The translations under genes and the position numbers were made by a program. From NCBI GenBank assembly GCA_016000265.1, contig JAECRL010000002.1, positions 62,001 through 126,000 of the forward strand: 64,000 bases of DNA, written 5' to 3'. The stretch comes from Burkholderiales bacterium (GTDB lineage Bacteria > Pseudomonadota > Gammaproteobacteria > Burkholderiales > Burkholderiaceae_C). The notes under the pieces are model-generated. The model was not told where the DNA came from. It made no database searches and saw nothing but the letters and a program-made list of their open reading frames with translations. Shown in pieces: positions 7,434 through 13,260 of this stretch (position 1 is the stretch's first letter; every line of letters begins with the position of its first letter).

Positions 7434-8467
7434 TGGAAGACCTCGACACCCAGGTCCTGAGGGCCGCCCAGGCCTGGCACGCCGCCGGCCTGCCGGGGGT
7501 GCTGGTCACGGTGGCGCGCACCTGGGGCTCGTCGCCGCGCCCGCCCGGCTCGCTCATGGCCATCAACGGCCGGGGCGAGACGGTGGGCTCCGTCTCCGGT
7601 GGTTGCATCGAAGACGACCTGATCCAGCGCATCCGCGAGGGCGGGGTGCAGGCCGCCTGCGCCAGCGAGGCGCCCACGGTGCTGCGCTACGGCATCTCGG
7701 CCGACCAGGCGCACCGCTTCGGTCTGCCCTGCGGCGGCACCGTCGAGCTGGTGCTGGAGCGCCTGGCCGAGCACAGCCAGGTGGACGCCTTGTTGCAAGC
7801 CTGCCAGCAGCGACGCAGCACCGAGCGGCGCCTGGACCTGCACAGCGGCCGCGTGAGCCTGCGCGACGTGCAGCGCGGCGAGCCGGGTGACGGCGTGCCC
7901 CGCCTCAGCGAGTCCGAGCTCGTCACGTACCTGGGGCCGCGCTCGCGCCTCATCCTGATCGGCGCGGGCGACCTCTCGCGCTTCCTGAGCCAGATGGCGC
8001 TCAGCCTGGGCTTCGAGGTCACCGTGTGTGACCCGCGCTCGGAGCACCGCGCCAGCTGGGGCCTCGACGGCGTCACCCTCAGCCACGAGATGCCCGACGA
8101 CCTGATCCTGCGCCTGCGCCCCGACGCCCGCACGGCGGTGGTCGCACTCACGCACGACCCCAAGCTCGACGACCTGGCCCTGATGGACGCCCTGCGCTCC
8201 GAGGCCTTCTACGTGGGCGCCATCGGCTCGCGGCGCAACACCGCGCAGCGCCGCGAGCGCCTGCGCGAGCACTTCGACGTGCCGGACGCGGCGCTGGCCG
8301 CGCTGCACGGCCCGGCCGGTCTCTACATCGGCAGCAAGACCCCGGCCGAGATCGCCTTGTCGATCATGGCCGAGATCGTGGCCGTCAAGAACGGCATCCA
8401 CCGACCGCAGCCGGCGACGGTGGAGGAGGGCAAGGCCCTGCGCGAGCCGGTTGACCGCCCCGCTTGA
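7433..8467 (+). CDS. XdhC family molybdenum cofactor maturation protein
   Basis: XdhC/CoxI-type protein of 344 residues. Known members bind molybdenum cofactor, promote its sulfuration and hand it to the apo-hydroxylase. The N-terminal XdhC/CoxI domain has the VSGGCIEDD signature, and the C-terminal Rossmann-like half has LILIGAGDLSRFL and AIGSRRNTAQRRERL. I chose the ATG at 7433 because it overlaps the stop of the large-subunit gene by one base (TGATG), a translational-coupling arrangement; longer in-frame starts would run through the upstream gene. Its role is therefore maturation of the hydroxylase encoded immediately before it. Confidence 0.9.
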   Translation: MEDLDTQVLRAAQAWHAAGLPGVLVTVARTWGSSPRPPGSLMAINGRGETVGSVSGGCIEDDLIQRIREGGVQAACASEAPTVLRYGISADQAHRFGLPCGGTVELVLERLAEHSQVDALLQACQQRRSTERRLDLHSGRVSLRDVQRGEPGDGVPRLSESELVTYLGPRSRLILIGAGDLSRFLSQMALSLGFEVTVCDPRSEHRASWGLDGVTLSHEMPDDLILRLRPDARTAVVALTHDPKLDDLALMDALRSEAFYVGAIGSRRNTAQRRERLREHFDVPDAALAALHGPAGLYIGSKTPAEIALSIMAEIVAVKNGIHRPQPATVEEGKALREPVDRPA

Positions 8468-8527: not shown

Positions 8528-8533
8528 TACAAT
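8528..8533 (+). promoter_or_regulatory. Probable -10 element of the riboswitch transcript
   Basis: TACAAT lies about a dozen bases before the first conserved riboswitch bases, a sensible place for a sigma-70 -10 box with transcription starting near 8540. No good -35 hexamer sits 16-18 bases upstream, so the call rests on position and the -10 match. Confidence 0.45.
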
Positions 8534-8545
8534 CCGCCCCGCCTC

Positions 8546-8770
8546 AGGTGCCCTTGGAGCCGCTCGTTCGGTTCTCGCAAGGGTGAAACGGGAAGTTCGG
8601 TGAGCAGGCTCGCAGCCTGCGATCCCGACGCTGCCCCCGCAACGGTGAAGCGAAGCAAGGCGATCCACGAAGCCACTGTGCCGACCAGCATGGGAAGGCG
8701 GATCGCCGGCCACAGGGCCTGGCCCGGTGGCGTTCGCGAGCCCGGAGACCGGCCTGAAGCACAGACCCGG
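8546..8770 (+). promoter_or_regulatory. Cobalamin (adenosylcobalamin) riboswitch
   Basis: The conserved blocks of the cobalamin aptamer are present in the right order: AGGTGCCC near the 5' end, GGGTGAAACGGGAAG at 8581-8595, GCTGCCCCCGCAACGGTGA from about 8630, the AGCCACTG block at 8671, and the B12 box GAGCCCGGAGACCGGCCTG at 8738-8756. About 150 bases of leader follow before the ATG at 8920. In this class B12 binding usually turns off downstream expression. The regulated genes here are the tandem PEP-CTERM protein and the BtuB-like receptor. The expression platform after 8770 was not resolved, and there is no clear intrinsic terminator, so control of translation or Rho-dependent termination is more likely. 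Confidence 0.95.
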
Positions 8771-8919
8771 TTGCTGCGGTGGGCGGCGAGGCGCAGGGGT
8801 GTGTTCGGATGCCGACCCGTGAGGTGGGCGTCCGCTTTCGCCTTTCGTCTTCGCCAAGCTGTCGCATCGACCGGAGCCTTCACATCGGTCCACGGGGACG
8901 TGGACACAGGAAGACCCGC

Positions 8920-10581
8920 ATGCACATCGCTTCGCCCCTCCGCTCGATCCGTCGACGCACTTTCCTTCACCGCCTGCAGCCCGCCCGTTTGAGCGCCACC
9001 CTGGGCCTCATCGGTTCGCTGGCCGTGGCCGGCGCCGCCCACGCCGGGCCATTCGCGCCGGCCGCAGGCAAGCCCGGCTCCACCGCCATCGGCAAAGACA
9101 GCCCCTCCTTCGTGCAGTGGGCCTCGGGCCACCAGGACTACCTGCCGGGCCCCAACGTGGACGCCGCCTGGAAGACGCCCGAGAAGGCGCTGGGCAAGGC
9201 CCAAGGCACCTCCACCGACATCGTCGTGCTCGGGGACGCCGGCCGCATCACGCTGACCTTTGGCGGCTCGATCTTCAACGGCGCCGGCGCCGACTTCGCT
9301 GTCTTCGAAAACAGCTTCAACGACACCTTCCTGGAGCTGGCCTGGGTCGAGGTCTCGTCCAACGGCGTGGACTTCTTCCGCTTCGCCAACTACTCGTTCA
9401 CCCCGGCTGCGGTGGGCGGCTTCGGCTCGATCGACCCGACCAACATCGAGGGCCTGGCCGGCAAGTACCGCCAGGGTTTCGGCACGCCGTTCGACCTCGA
9501 CTCGCTGGCCGGCACGCCCGGGCTGGACGTCAACAACGTGCGCTTCGTGCGCCTGATCGACATCGTCGGGCGCGGGGGGGAGTTCGACAGCTACCCCGCC
9601 GCTTACGGGGGCCCGCACGCCATCTACGACCCGTACCCCACCACGGGCAGCGGCGGCTTCGACCTCGACGCGGTCGGTGTCATCCACTTCAGCGCCAGTG
9701 CCATGCCCGTGCCGGAGCCCGGCACCTGGGCCCTGGCCGGCATCGGCTTGCTGGCGCTGGCGGCCTTGCGCCGGCGTCGCGCGGTGCGCGTGTCCGCGGC
9801 CGTCCTGGCCACCGCGATGGCCTCCTCAGCCGGCGCCGCCACCGTGGTCAGCACCTTCGACGACCTGAGCCTGGCGCCCAACAGCCATTTCTTCCCCGAG
9901 GCCTCGACGAGCTTCACCAGCGGCGCCGCCCGCTTCAACCACGACTTCGCCGACTACGGCATCCCCGGTTGCTGCTGGAGTGGCTGGACCCACTCCAACC
10001 GGGTCGACACCACCACGCCCGGCTTCGAGAACCAGTACAGCGCCTACGCGGGAGGCGGCGCCGGCGGCTCGGCCCACTACGCCCTGGCGTACCTGGGCGC
10101 GCCCGCGGTGCGACTCGAGGCGCCGTCGGTCATCGACAGCGTGGACGTCACCAACACGACCTACACGGCCCTGTCCATGCTGCAAGGTGACTCGTTTGCC
10201 AAGCGCTTTGGCGGTGACAGCGGCAACGACGCCGACTTCCTCAAGCTGACCTTCGTGGGCCTGGACCTCGGGGGCAGCGAAACCGGCCGCGTCGATTTCT
10301 TCCTGGCTGACTACCGCTCCGCCGACAACCGCCTGGACCACGTCGTGCGCGACTGGACCCGGGTGGACCTGCGTGCCCTGGGCACCGTGGCCGCCCTGAG
10401 GTTCGAGATGAGCTCGTCCGACGTGGGCGCCTTCGGCATGAACACCCCGGCGTACTTCGCCATCGACAACCTGAGCGTGACGGCCGTGCCCGAAGTGGGA
10501 TCGGGCTGGATGGCGATGGCGGGCCTGCTGGGCTTGTCTGGCTGCTTGGGCCTGAGGCGCCAGCGCCGCTCGGCGCGATGA
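8920..10581 (+). CDS. Tandem PEP-CTERM surface protein with a C-terminal DUF4465 module, B12-riboswitch controlled
   Basis: A 553-residue secreted protein made of two complete modules. Module 1 has a signal peptide (residues about 15-45), a globular domain at about 48-255 rich in Asp/Asn/Gly ([38 protein letters not shown]), then a PEP-CTERM tail: PVPEPGT at 263-269, a hydrophobic helix, and Arg284-287. Without any stop codon a second signal-like stretch follows (about 288-307, ending GAA), then a DUF4465 domain ([32 protein letters not shown]) and a second sorting tail VPEVGSG at 523-529 with a helix and RRQRR. The ATG at 8920 has ACAGGAAG upstream. The gene sits behind the cobalamin riboswitch and overlaps the receptor gene by 4 bases. 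From memory, both domain types recur beside TonB receptors under B12 riboswitches in Bacteroidetes; corrinoid binding is inference. Confidence 0.85.
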
Positions 10582-12644
10582 GCCGCGCAGGCCTGAGTGG
10601 CCTGGCTGCGGCGCTGGCCGCAGCCTGCCCGGCGGCGTTCGGGCGGGCTGGGCCCGGGCACGACGCGGAACGCAGCCTGCCCGAGGTCACCGTGCGCGCC
10701 AGCGGCCCGCAGGCGGCGATGCACCACGTCACCGTCCTCACCGCCCAGGACATCGCGCGCGCCACCGCCACCTCCGTCAGCGAGCTCTTGAGCACCCAAG
10801 GCAACCTGAACCTGCTGAGCTACACCGGCAACGACAAGAAGGCCACGCTGGACCTGCGCGGCATGGGTGGCACCGCGGCCAACAACGTGCTGATCGTGGT
10901 GGACGGCGTGGCGATCAACGAAAACGACCTCTCCGGTGCCGACCTGTCCTCGCTGGCCCTGTCACAGATCCAGCGCGTGGAGATCGTGCGCGGCGGGGGC
11001 AGCGTCGAGCACGGCAGCGGCGCCGTGGCGGGGGTCATCCGCATCACCACCGTGCCCTCGCTGGACGAAGGCGAGTCCCGGCTGGGCCTGCGATGGCGGG
11101 GCAACGACGAGGGCGACCGCACCGGCAGCCTCCACGCGCAGCGGCGCTTCGGGGCCGTGAGCGCCGCCGCGCAGCTGGAGCGCGGCCAGGCCCGCGGCCA
11201 CCGCGACAACGCCGGCCTGGACCACACCCTGGCCGCGTTGACCGTGCGCTGGCAGGGCTCGCTGGGCCCGACGCAGGCCGACGCCCACGTCAAACTGACC
11301 CGCCAGCGCGACCGCTACGGCCTGCCCGGTCCCGTGAGCCGGGAGGCGTTCGAAGGCGGCGGTGGGGCGAGGCGGGCGAGCGCGTCGCCTCTGGATGGCG
11401 GGCGCACCGAAATGGACCGCCAGGACCTCGGCGCCAGCCTCGACTTCGGTCGCCTGGGGCGCACGCAGTGGCGCAGCAGCCACCGCGATCGATTCAGCCC
11501 GTTCGTGATCGGGGTGGACGCCTCGCGACCCGTGGCGGAGCAGGCCGACCGCATCACCGCCGCACAGTGGGACCACCGCGTGAGCCACCACCTGCAGGCC
11601 GAGGTCATGGGGCGCCAGCAGGAGCTGACGCTGGGCTGGAGCCAGATGCAGGGCGAGCACAGCCGCTCGAGCAACGGCTTCGAGCGGCCCGCGGGCACCT
11701 TGACCCTGGGGCGAGCCTCATCCCGTGCGACCTTCCTGGCGGCCACCCTGCGCCCCAGCGAGGCCCTCACCCTGCAAGCGGGCCTGCGCGGGGACCGCTT
11801 TCGCACCCAGCAAGTCAGCCAGCGCCACCGGCAAAACTGCAGCTACGCCTACATCCCCTTCCCCGTGGTGATCGCTTGCTCGCCCTACGCCTACGAGGCC
11901 GACGACGCGGGGCGGGCCAGCCGCTGGTTCAACCGCGGCAGCGAGTTGGGCGCGAGCTGGCAGGTCACCCCCGCGCTCAGCGGCTTCGTCAGCCACAGCC
12001 ACACCTTCCGCGCGCCCAACCTCGACGAGCTGGTCGAGGCGACGAGCACCCTCCAGCCGCAACGCGGCCAGACCCGCGAGGTCGGTGTGCGGCACCGCCT
12101 GGGCGAGGCGCTGTCGTGGTCGGCCACGCTGTTCGACATCCGCATCCACGACGAGATCCAGTACGGCCGGGACCCCGCCTCCGGCCGGCAGCTCAACCGA
12201 AACCTCGATGCGCCCACGCAGCGGCGGGGCGTGGAGGCCAGCCTGCGCTGGCGGCCGCTGCCCGCGCTGCAGCTCCAAGGCCAGCTCACCCACCTGCGGC
12301 CCCGGCTGGTCGGGCGCTCGGGCGACATCCCGCTGGTGGCGCGCAACACGGCCAGCCTGACGGCCAGTTGGCAGGCGAGCGAGGCCTGGCGGTGGACGGT
12401 GGCCGGGCGATTCGTGGGCCCGCGCGAAGACGGCCACGCCACCGGCGATGGCACACCGCAGCCGCGGCGGCTGCGCGCGCACGACGTGTGGGACGCCTCG
12501 GTGCGGCACCAGGCGGGCGATGTGAGCTGGACGCTGGGCGTGCGCAACCTCTTCGACGAGGTCTACAGCACCCAGGCTTTCAGCCAGACCTACTACCCGA
12601 TGCCGGGGCGGCAGGCGCACCTGGAGGTGGCCTGGGGGTTCTGA
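10578..12644 (+). CDS. btuB: TonB-dependent outer-membrane receptor, BtuB-like (probable corrinoid receptor)
   Basis: Outer-membrane gated transporter of 688 residues: signal peptide at about 1-25, a TonB-box-like LPEVTVRAS, a plug domain ([37 protein letters not shown]), and a 22-strand barrel ending with a terminal Phe, as is usual for outer-membrane proteins. It starts within the stop of the preceding gene (ATGA, 4-base overlap), so it is co-translated with the PEP-CTERM protein and lies under the same cobalamin riboswitch. That regulation is the main evidence for cobalamin or another corrinoid as substrate. No btuF, btuC or btuD is in the window. A siderophore receptor would look similar but would not be expected behind this riboswitch. 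Confidence 0.88.
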
Positions 12645-12660: not shown

Positions 12661-13203
12661 TCAGTGCTTGTGTTCGCCGTGGCCTTGCCCGTGATCGTGA
12701 TCGTGACCCGATCCGCCCGCGGCGTCGGCCTTCGCAGCGGGGGCCTGCTGTCGCACCGGCACCTGCAGATCCACCGTGCGCTGCTTGCGCTGCGCGTCTT
12801 CCACCACCAGCGTCACCGGCACCGTGCTGCCCGAGGGCAGGGCTTGCTTGAGCCCCATGAGCATGACGTGGTACGAGCCCGGCTTGAGCGCCACCGCCGT
12901 GCCCGCCGGCAGCGGCAGGCGGGGCACGGCGCGCATGCGCATCACGTCGCCGTCCATCTTCATCTCGTGGACCTCGACGGTGCCGGCCACCGGCGAGCGC
13001 GCGCCCACCAGCGTGCCGCCTTGCGGCGCGGTCAGCGTGGCGAACATGCCGGTGGCCTGCTGGCCCTTGACCGTGGCGCGCACCCAGGGGCCTTGCACCT
13101 CCAGCGGCGACGTGGCCTGAGCCTGCGCGGATGAGGAGCCCAGGCCGAGGGCCAGGGCCAGGATGGCGGAGAGGCGGCGAACGTCGGGGCGTGTCAATCG
13201 CAT
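12661..13203 (-). CDS. PCu(A)C family periplasmic copper chaperone with His-rich tail
   Basis: Periplasmic copper carrier that, in known members, delivers Cu(I) to the CuA or CuB site of cytochrome oxidase. Starting at the ATG at 13203 it is 180 residues, with a signal peptide at about 1-30 (LGSSSAQAQA). The family motif H-x10-M-x21-H-x-M is exact: H79, M90, H112, M114. The C-terminus (about 165-180) is His/Asp/Gly-rich (GHDHDHGQGHGEHKH), which could add a second metal site. A longer form from 13239 is possible but less likely because it adds a hydrophilic leader before the signal. It converges on the receptor gene and is divergent from kefF. Confidence 0.9.
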   Translation of the reverse strand: MRLTRPDVRRLSAILALALGLGSSSAQAQATSPLEVQGPWVRATVKGQQATGMFATLTAPQGGTLVGARSPVAGTVEVHEMKMDGDVMRMRAVPRLPLPAGTAVALKPGSYHVMLMGLKQALPSGSTVPVTLVVEDAQRKQRTVDLQVPVRQQAPAAKADAAGGSGHDHDHGQGHGEHKH

Positions 13204-13260
13204 GGCGCGTGATCCTTCGGTTGAATCGGTGTCGGTCATTGTCCACCTTCACAATGCCGC

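Follow-up and report, generated by a model that had tools for sequence, protein, structure and literature searches.

What is a cobalamin riboswitch doing in front of a gene for a PEP-CTERM protein, and how might such a protein serve in the acquisition of vitamin B12? The locus lies in a window of 64,000 nucleotides from a Burkholderiales bacterium, for which an earlier note had proposed a cobalamin riboswitch ahead of two genes, with a TonB-dependent receptor gene overlapping the first. Both proposals held. The aptamer matches RF00174 (Cobalamin) over the full model length at 91.6 bits against a gathering threshold of 31.5 (cmscan, E 2.1e-21), the sole RNA found in the window by Rfam at gathering thresholds, and it is followed by the precursor P0001 and the receptor P0002, whose genes overlap by 4 bases (Table 1). 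Because the frame taken as the next downstream gene, at 12661-13239, is on the opposite strand, the operon appears to hold two genes. That it serves vitamin B12 scavenging we regard as very probable, and we favor, with good confidence, a fuller reading in which a B12-switched operon encodes a chain that is cut into two cobamide binders feeding P0002.

Table 1. Positions of the features of the operon within the window
Feature	Position	Strand	Details	Basis
Cobalamin riboswitch aptamer, RF00174	8529-8771	+	model 1-189 of 189	Rfam
P0001, fused two-module precursor	8920-10581	+	553 aa, 57.9 kDa uncut	open frame
Predicted first signal peptide	8920-9045	+	residues 1-42, ...AHA/GPF	sequence, hydrophobic segment 24-40
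Domain 1, BtuH-like	9046-9705	+	without Pfam match	AF2 model, PDB structure matches
Internal PEP-CTERM sorting signal	9706-9780	+	VPEPGTW...LRRRR	PF07589
Fusion point	9779-9780	+		DNA alignment with split relatives
Predicted internal second signal peptide	9781-9837	+		sequence, hydrophobic segment 294-310
DUF4465 (BtuJ-type) module	9856-10485	+	NTTY and NTPAYF motifs	PF14717
Degenerate C-terminal PEP-CTERM-like tail	10486-10578	+	VPEV...RRQRR	
P0002, BtuB-like TonB-dependent receptor	10578-12644	+	688 aa	PF07715, PF00593

The leader offers few clues to the level of control. A search for terminators turned up, at 8826-8843, one weak match of 5 pairs, which we rejected (the region has 3 sites where 1.9 are expected), and the stretch 3' of the aptamer folds unremarkably (z -1.65); control at the level of translation is therefore a guess.

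The anatomy of P0001 is composite. From the ATG at 8920, a choice among the start codons of the frame that shows Shine-Dalgarno-like pairing of -4.3 kcal, the order is signal peptide, domain 1, PEP-CTERM signal, second signal peptide, DUF4465 module, and degenerate PEP-CTERM-like tail. The description of a tandem PEP-CTERM/DUF4465 protein was right as to two modules, but the modules differ, only one is DUF4465, and PF07589 misses the last tail. The signal that PF07589 does recognize (residues 263-286 of 553, E 2.7e-6, 27.7 bits against 20.7), and that a whole-genome scan also found at C18:71706-71777, has the PEP motif, hydrophobic stretch, and basic cluster, and is internal, whereas exosortase substrates have theirs at the C terminus. 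The C-terminal tail has no PF07589 match and a hydrophobicity under the threshold used, and other PEP-CTERM family models match it below cut-off (NF038120, 27.6 bits against 80). The proposed exosortase route finds its machinery in the host genome, which has three EpsH matches, two above the XrtB cut-off, and 29 PEP-CTERM sites, although the sorting tail at the very end of P0001 is degenerate. DUF4465 proteins with PEP-CTERM tails (IPR013424, taken here as PEP-CTERM) are apparently already in print.

The case for cobamide capture begins with the DUF4465 module. It matches PF14717 at residues 352-518 (E 5.5e-53, 180.4 bits against a cut-off of 25), and PDB chain 9hmu (E 2.1e-23). B12 binding by the DUF4465 family, BtuJ, is published (PMC13398666; PMC12751083), and for this family members in Pseudomonadota are already listed, with genes that are often near other DUF families resembling the accessory B12-scavenging proteins of Bacteroides thetaiotaomicron (PMC13398666). 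The expected contact motifs, NTPxY and a helix Tyr, are intact in P0001 as NTTY and NTPAYF, with N, T, and Y of the first and N and Y of the second kept in 63 to 73 of 73 aligned rows.

Domain 1 is the less familiar partner. No Pfam match was found at E<=1 for any of 12 members, and NF033170 (LIC_13355 lipoprotein) was rejected as an NCBIfam candidate, its matches being weak in all 12 (best E 6e-6) and far under the 120-bit cut-off. The AF2 model (pLDDT 95.5) has BtuH2 (7biz) and BtuGH (8blw) as its top PDB structure matches; BtuH2, through its B12-binding domain, ranks first among PDB folds in two models, with a modest margin over unrelated folds of 1.7 Z in the first. Among three profiles searched against PDB sequences, one (A4) has BtuGH as its best match (E 0.022), a second (A1) gave chance-level rows only, and the third (A5; by labels, 11 Bacteroidota and one Planctomycetota sequence) gave one unrelated row and no BtuGH. 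An Asn is conserved in 69 of 69 aligned sequences, followed two residues later by Phe in 61, and by sequence this pair would fall close to the positions of Asn399 and Phe401 in BtuH2, contacts for B12 according to PMC8941943; BtuGH differs in having Ser at the second position. We regard cobamide binding by domain 1 as probable. The best 80 loci of this BtuH-like family come under ten phylum labels, of which one is doubtful.

A rather doubtful alternative is that domain 1, instead of binding B12, is a structural or carbohydrate-binding partner of the F5/8C or CBM32-like kind that tethers the capture module to exopolysaccharide. The fold rankings, the single profile match to BtuGH, and the inferred placement of the Asn and Phe argue against this, as does conservation: compared with the window, domain 1 shows stronger conservation than either DUF4465 or the receptor in all 11 other loci of the order.

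The genome search suggested in the earlier note, for riboswitch, domain pair, and receptor together, covered 399 genomes of the order and recovered the full set in 12. The two modules are present in the same 12 genomes, with one further weak match for domain 1, and in all 12 loci riboswitch, domain 1, DUF4465, and receptor stand in that order. Across 25 betaproteobacterial loci, the modules are separate genes in 16 and a single frame in 9, and the single-frame loci arose by several separate fusions that retained the first sorting signal and the second signal peptide. Relative to the split relative L032, a 57-nt stretch comprising stop codon, spacer, and ATG is absent from the fusion point of the window, with end points that depend on the alignment (made with L032, and with L120, L032, and L123). 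The internal signal peptide of P0001 sits where separate DUF4465 genes bear an N-terminal one.

Could the modules still be made separately, by translation that starts within the fused frame, with the fusion incidental? In the region of the internal signal peptide the fused loci L020 and L022 retain an ATG, and GTG codons occur there in the window; within the PEP-CTERM helix or close to it, certain GTG or CTG codons show good pairing with the 16S tail (to -6.4 kcal). At the signal peptide itself, however, pairing is weak (-1.7 and -3.0 in the window; the best, -3.9, in L020), whereas 11 of 15 split rows pair at -5 or better, and the window and L120 have lost the former stop, spacer, and ATG. 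We consider an internal start very unlikely.

Nor do we favor an uncut chain, in which B12 scavenging is correct but the two central hydrophobic segments (267-283 and 294-310) form an inner-membrane hairpin that anchors both modules. Only some 10 residues, among them an arginine cluster, separate these segments, one fused genome has no detected exosortase, and exosortase action on an internal signal is a prediction for this protein class, all of which suits a hairpin. Yet all nine fused proteins keep the internal PEP motif, the basic cluster, and the AxA site, and the junction is under constraint in the four pairs of relatives tested (dN/dS 0.00-0.16), a result that a hairpin would fit too. 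None of nine directly fused homologues tested from other phyla has a hydrophobic segment between the modules; a hairpin is therefore unnecessary for joint action. We judge the hairpin unlikely, and cutting of the P0001 chain into two proteins somewhat more likely than not. The single capture protein of the earlier note becomes, with DUF4465 confirmed as a published B12-binding family, two modules of different fold that are probably released separately.

P0002 carries a TonB plug and barrel, and its nearest solved chain is E. coli BtuB (3rgn, E 3.1e-19, over plug region 47-178), supporting the relationship proposed earlier; the full name goes too far, as the score against the curated BtuB equivalog TIGR01779 (131.8 bits, cut-off 599.7) is far below that level, and we call it BtuB-like only. 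No Pfam propeller match, as for a BtuG lid, was found in P0001 or P0002. All 19 betaproteobacterial loci in the order and genus samples have the receptor gene directly next, a hint of a local partner, although adjacency is compatible with release of the PEP-CTERM proteins as matrix B12 carriers rather than receptor-bound surface proteins. Release, which we think less likely than not, has parallels: the PEP-CTERM zinc-capture protein ZepA occurs in the exoproteome (PMC10957091), and BtuJ acts on extracellular vesicles of B. thetaiotaomicron (PMC12751083).

Under the reading of a cut chain, scarce cobamide would lead the riboswitch to permit expression of both genes, and P0001 would be translated as a single chain. 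The first signal peptide would begin export of domain 1 through Sec, the PEP-CTERM helix would halt transfer with the arginine cluster inside, and the second signal peptide would resume export with the DUF4465 module. Cleavage by exosortase, at the internal PEP motif, and by signal peptidase I, at the AxA site between the modules, would yield two exported proteins of different fold, BtuH-like and BtuJ-like, each predicted to bind cobamide. Scarce cobamide could be held at the cell surface or in the matrix and handed to P0002, with the BtuF-BtuC-BtuD importer taking over the periplasmic step.

P0001 shares with BtuJ proteins the domain family, contact motifs, and neighborhood of riboswitch and TonB receptor (PMC13398666; PMC12751083), but those are lipoproteins, whereas here an internal PEP-CTERM signal and a signal peptide link DUF4465 to a BtuH-like module. 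The fold of domain 1 and its place in a riboswitched btuB locus recall BtuH and BtuGH of B. thetaiotaomicron (PMC8941943, PMC10404256, and PMC12751083), and BtuGH likewise fuses two B12-binding domains, binding being predicted for P0001; unlike these, P0001 is without PKD or propeller domain and not a lipoprotein by sequence, and the similarity is near the detection limit. ZepA, too, is a PEP-CTERM capture protein under the control of scarcity, and TonB-dependent transporters are encoded near it, but it is Zur controlled and takes zinc, with neither DUF4465 nor a second signal peptide reported in the part of PMC10957091 available. NF033207 (midcut-by-XrtH) denotes by name a mid-protein sorting signal, and its match to P0001 is not significant (E 0.77). 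By title, literature searches returned nothing relevant on midcut-by-XrtH or internal sorting signals, nor on polyproteins with signal peptidase and sortase, and, among the papers listed, none on PEP-CTERM together with B12, riboswitch, and TonB receptor; PMC12530212 places PEP-CTERM genes behind c-di-GMP riboswitches and cobalamin riboswitches at synthesis genes. Recurrent fusion and the BtuH-like partner were not found in the literature searched, whose coverage left out many subscription papers. The parts are known and resemble those of gut bacteria; the way they are paired, sorted, and repeatedly fused looks like a new variation.

A more tentative and rather speculative extension is a surface polyprotein, born of repeated small deletions, whose products form a two-part cobamide clamp or relay that grips from opposite sides and feeds the receptor. 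Through such deletions the sorting tail of one exported protein would run straight into the signal peptide encoded next, with exosortase and signal peptidase restoring two products. According to the BtuH and BtuJ papers cited above, the lower ligand of B12 faces the protein in BtuH2 and outward in BtuJ. The joint model of a direct fusion is confident (pTM 0.87) and fits a fixed mutual position of the modules, the facing of the clefts being outside what it shows.

If correct, our reading would extend to Proteobacteria and other phyla a B12-capture layer like that of gut Bacteroides. It would also suggest what a large domain family that Pfam does not match is for, and an unrecognized scavenging family would alter how B12 competition is read from genomes. 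Whether exosortase can cut an internal signal is a question for which the fused proteins would provide a natural test. Elsewhere in the host genome there is a second riboswitch, behind which the BtuF-BtuC-BtuD importer genes are read.

An earlier note on this DNA had placed a cobalamin riboswitch ahead of two overlapping genes, and this arrangement holds: the only RNA that Rfam finds in the window is a full cobalamin aptamer, followed by the genes for the two-module precursor P0001 and the BtuB-like receptor P0002, which overlap by 4 bases. The likely next gene downstream lies on the opposite strand, where we assume a copper chaperone-like frame. P0001 runs from a signal peptide through domain 1, a PEP-CTERM segment with four arginines directly behind it, a second signal-peptide-like stretch ending in SAGA, and DUF4465 to a last tail. 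The earlier description of a tandem PEP-CTERM/DUF4465 protein stands for these two elements but not for the tail, which reads VPEV where VPEP is expected, nor for the tandem, as the modules differ in fold. The last Pro is likewise missing in the split loci L032 and L123 and the fused L120, all with VPEA, suggesting drift common to them or a group-specific signal variant. The nearest solved relative of P0002 is E. coli BtuB, and P0002 falls far under the curated BtuB score.

Coordinates of features in the window and at compared loci
Feature	Position	Strand	Remark
Neighbouring upstream frame	stops at 8467
Cobalamin aptamer	8529-8771		full
P0001	8920-10581		553 aa
Domain 1	9046-9705
PEP-CTERM of P0001	residues 263-286
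Four arginines of P0001	residues 284-287
DUF4465 of P0001	residues 352-518
Last tail of P0001 with second PEP motif	10486-10578		VPEV
P0002	10578-12644		TonB receptor, plug and barrel
Downstream frame	12661-13239	minus	presumably PCuAC-type copper chaperone-like
Second B12 riboswitch of own genome	L029:7318-7561		contig C6
Exosortase fusion	L031:8075-9778		XrtB-type with EpsI-type domain
tRNA block	L031:16629-17409		six genes
Further riboswitch, Betaproteobacteria bacterium SCN1	L039:2951-3153
DUF4465 adjoining domain 1	L087:8173-9666		contig labelled Akkermansia muciniphila

DUF4465 is a known B12 binder, and the PDB entry that P0001 matches best by sequence is 9hmu, which contains the DUF4465 protein D5EK51 (E 2.1e-23). 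According to one report, eight distantly related members bind B12, Pseudomonadota are among the family, and its genes often lie near TonB receptors and near other DUF families resembling the accessory B12-scavenging proteins of B. theta (PMC13398666). In BtuJ1 and BtuJ2, according to a second report, B12 is contacted by three HI-loop residues, Asn, Thr and Tyr, and by a further Tyr at the DE helix (PMC12751083). The window counterparts are NTPAYF and NTTY, of which N, T, P, Y and F of the former and N, the third-place T and Y of the latter are invariant at 12 of 12 loci of the order, the variants being NSTY (L021), NTPGYF (L023) and NTPSYF (L027). The majority of contact-motif positions is retained in 73 aligned rows (70 distinct). 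Domain 1 would bind in a BtuH-like manner, and a B12 function of the operon is likely. All 12 betaproteobacterial domain 1 sequences weakly match NF033170 (LIC_13355), an NCBIfam lipoprotein family that may thus also be B12 related.

Of 399 genomes of the order, 12 have DUF4465, and full-length domain 1 is found in the same 12; riboswitch, domain 1, DUF4465 and receptor follow in this order on one strand at every one of these loci. Weak partial domain 1 matches add one genome (G218) and a second site in G342. Of 61 relatives, own genome included, 8 have domain 1; they all belong to the window's genus, which contributes 37 genomes, and all 7 besides the own genome carry the same operon. DUF4465 is found at 52 of the 80 best loci and a receptor at 54, on the same strand and no more than 4.5 kb away. 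A riboswitch lies at most 5.5 kb upstream in 44, L067 and L085 being partial matches only; six matches of E > 1e-3 were excluded, as was one on the opposite strand. All three elements are found at 33 loci, at least one at 68 and none at 12, where some contigs are short and riboswitch misses outside Betaproteobacteria are likely, as the model was built mainly on their leaders. The receptor comes first in the Gammaproteobacteria of the set, and the order DUF4465-receptor-domain 1 is seen in Verrucomicrobiota, Kiritimatiellota, Thermodesulfobacteriota and others. Both modules share a single frame at 5 Bacteroidota and 4 Planctomycetota loci, none of which has a hydrophobic segment between the modules, and also at L062 and L085. 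L062 reads DUF4465-domain 1-DUF4465, and at the Planctomycetota loci L053, L073, L076 and L077 one frame holds domain 1 together with two or three copies of DUF4465. DUF4465 also adjoins domain 1 at L087. The contig L099, labelled as the actinobacterium Agromyces, carries a TonB receptor along with domain 1, so that this bin is probably contaminated. In SCN1 the further riboswitch, paired with a receptor of its own, lies on the opposite strand, ~5.5 kb away from the one at domain 1.

We take IPR013424 to be the PEP-CTERM entry. It is assigned to 88 of 824 DUF4465 family members in the BtuJ report (PMC12751083). For a DUF4465 protein, PEP-CTERM sorting, which the earlier note had seen as a different way to the surface, is therefore apparently not new in itself. 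The own genome has 29 PEP-CTERM sites and three EpsH matches, two above the XrtB cut-off and the third, an XrtB/EpsI-type fusion, slightly under it. L031 encodes an exosortase of this fused type and six tRNA genes that, judged by score, look like a block of three repeated twice. Of 18 other genomes carrying the locus, 16 have an exosortase, and none was found in G193 (fused, 95% complete) or G393 (split, 64% complete). Behind its second B12 riboswitch, the own genome has what we take to be a btuB, cobU, btuF, btuC, btuD operon. A presumed MetH-like frame and the lack of a CbiC match in this genome (93% complete) fit a cobamide importer, CbiC being one marker only.

Among 25 betaproteobacterial loci, repeated contigs (recognised by equal length) counted once, the modules are fused in 9 (window, L020-L025, L120, L121) and split in 16. 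L032, the window's nearest row on the tree, is split, and compared with it the window lacks a 57-nt stretch containing stop codon, spacer and ATG. L120 belongs to the same well-supported group, which has four members; it is fused, with other end points, and its sister is the split L123. In the 28-row tree (these 25 and three gammaproteobacterial loci, five others left out), the fused state requires 5 changes, gains and losses alike, at least 3 of them forced by well-supported branches, 15 of the 25 inner branches being weakly supported. A single fused clade was rejected (p-AU 1.4e-5, or 0.0026 on a 23-row tree, where 4 changes are needed and no fewer than 2 of them are forced). To become split again, a fused gene would have to gain a stop, a start and a ribosome site. 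The internal PEP motif, basic cluster and AxA site are kept in 9 of 9 fused proteins, and in four pairs drawn from five fused genes in relatives, dN/dS over the 49 junction codons is 0.00, 0.16, 0.06 and 0.11. In 11 of 15 split rows, which come from 13 loci, the start region pairs with the 16S tail at -5 kcal or better; none of 7 fused loci does so 18-28 codons ahead of the DUF4465 domain, but at other places within the joint, GTG or CTG codons pair at -5.0 to -6.4 in 6 of these 7. As the gene boundary was lost repeatedly with both sorting elements conserved, the best explanation would be that the P0001 chain is a precursor cut back into two proteins.

The operon looks like the proteobacterial equivalent of the capture systems known from Bacteroides. 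Exosortase sorting would stand in for the lipoprotein anchor, BtuG is absent from the operon, and the two putative capture modules differ in fold. The parts are known; the combination is new as far as the literature searched reaches. In published structures, the lower ligand of B12 faces the protein in BtuH2 (PMC8941943) and outward in BtuJ (PMC12751083), and this opposite orientation makes a clamp or relay possible. A joint model of both modules as a direct fusion is itself confident (pTM 0.87) and would agree with a fixed mutual position, though not necessarily with clefts that face one another.
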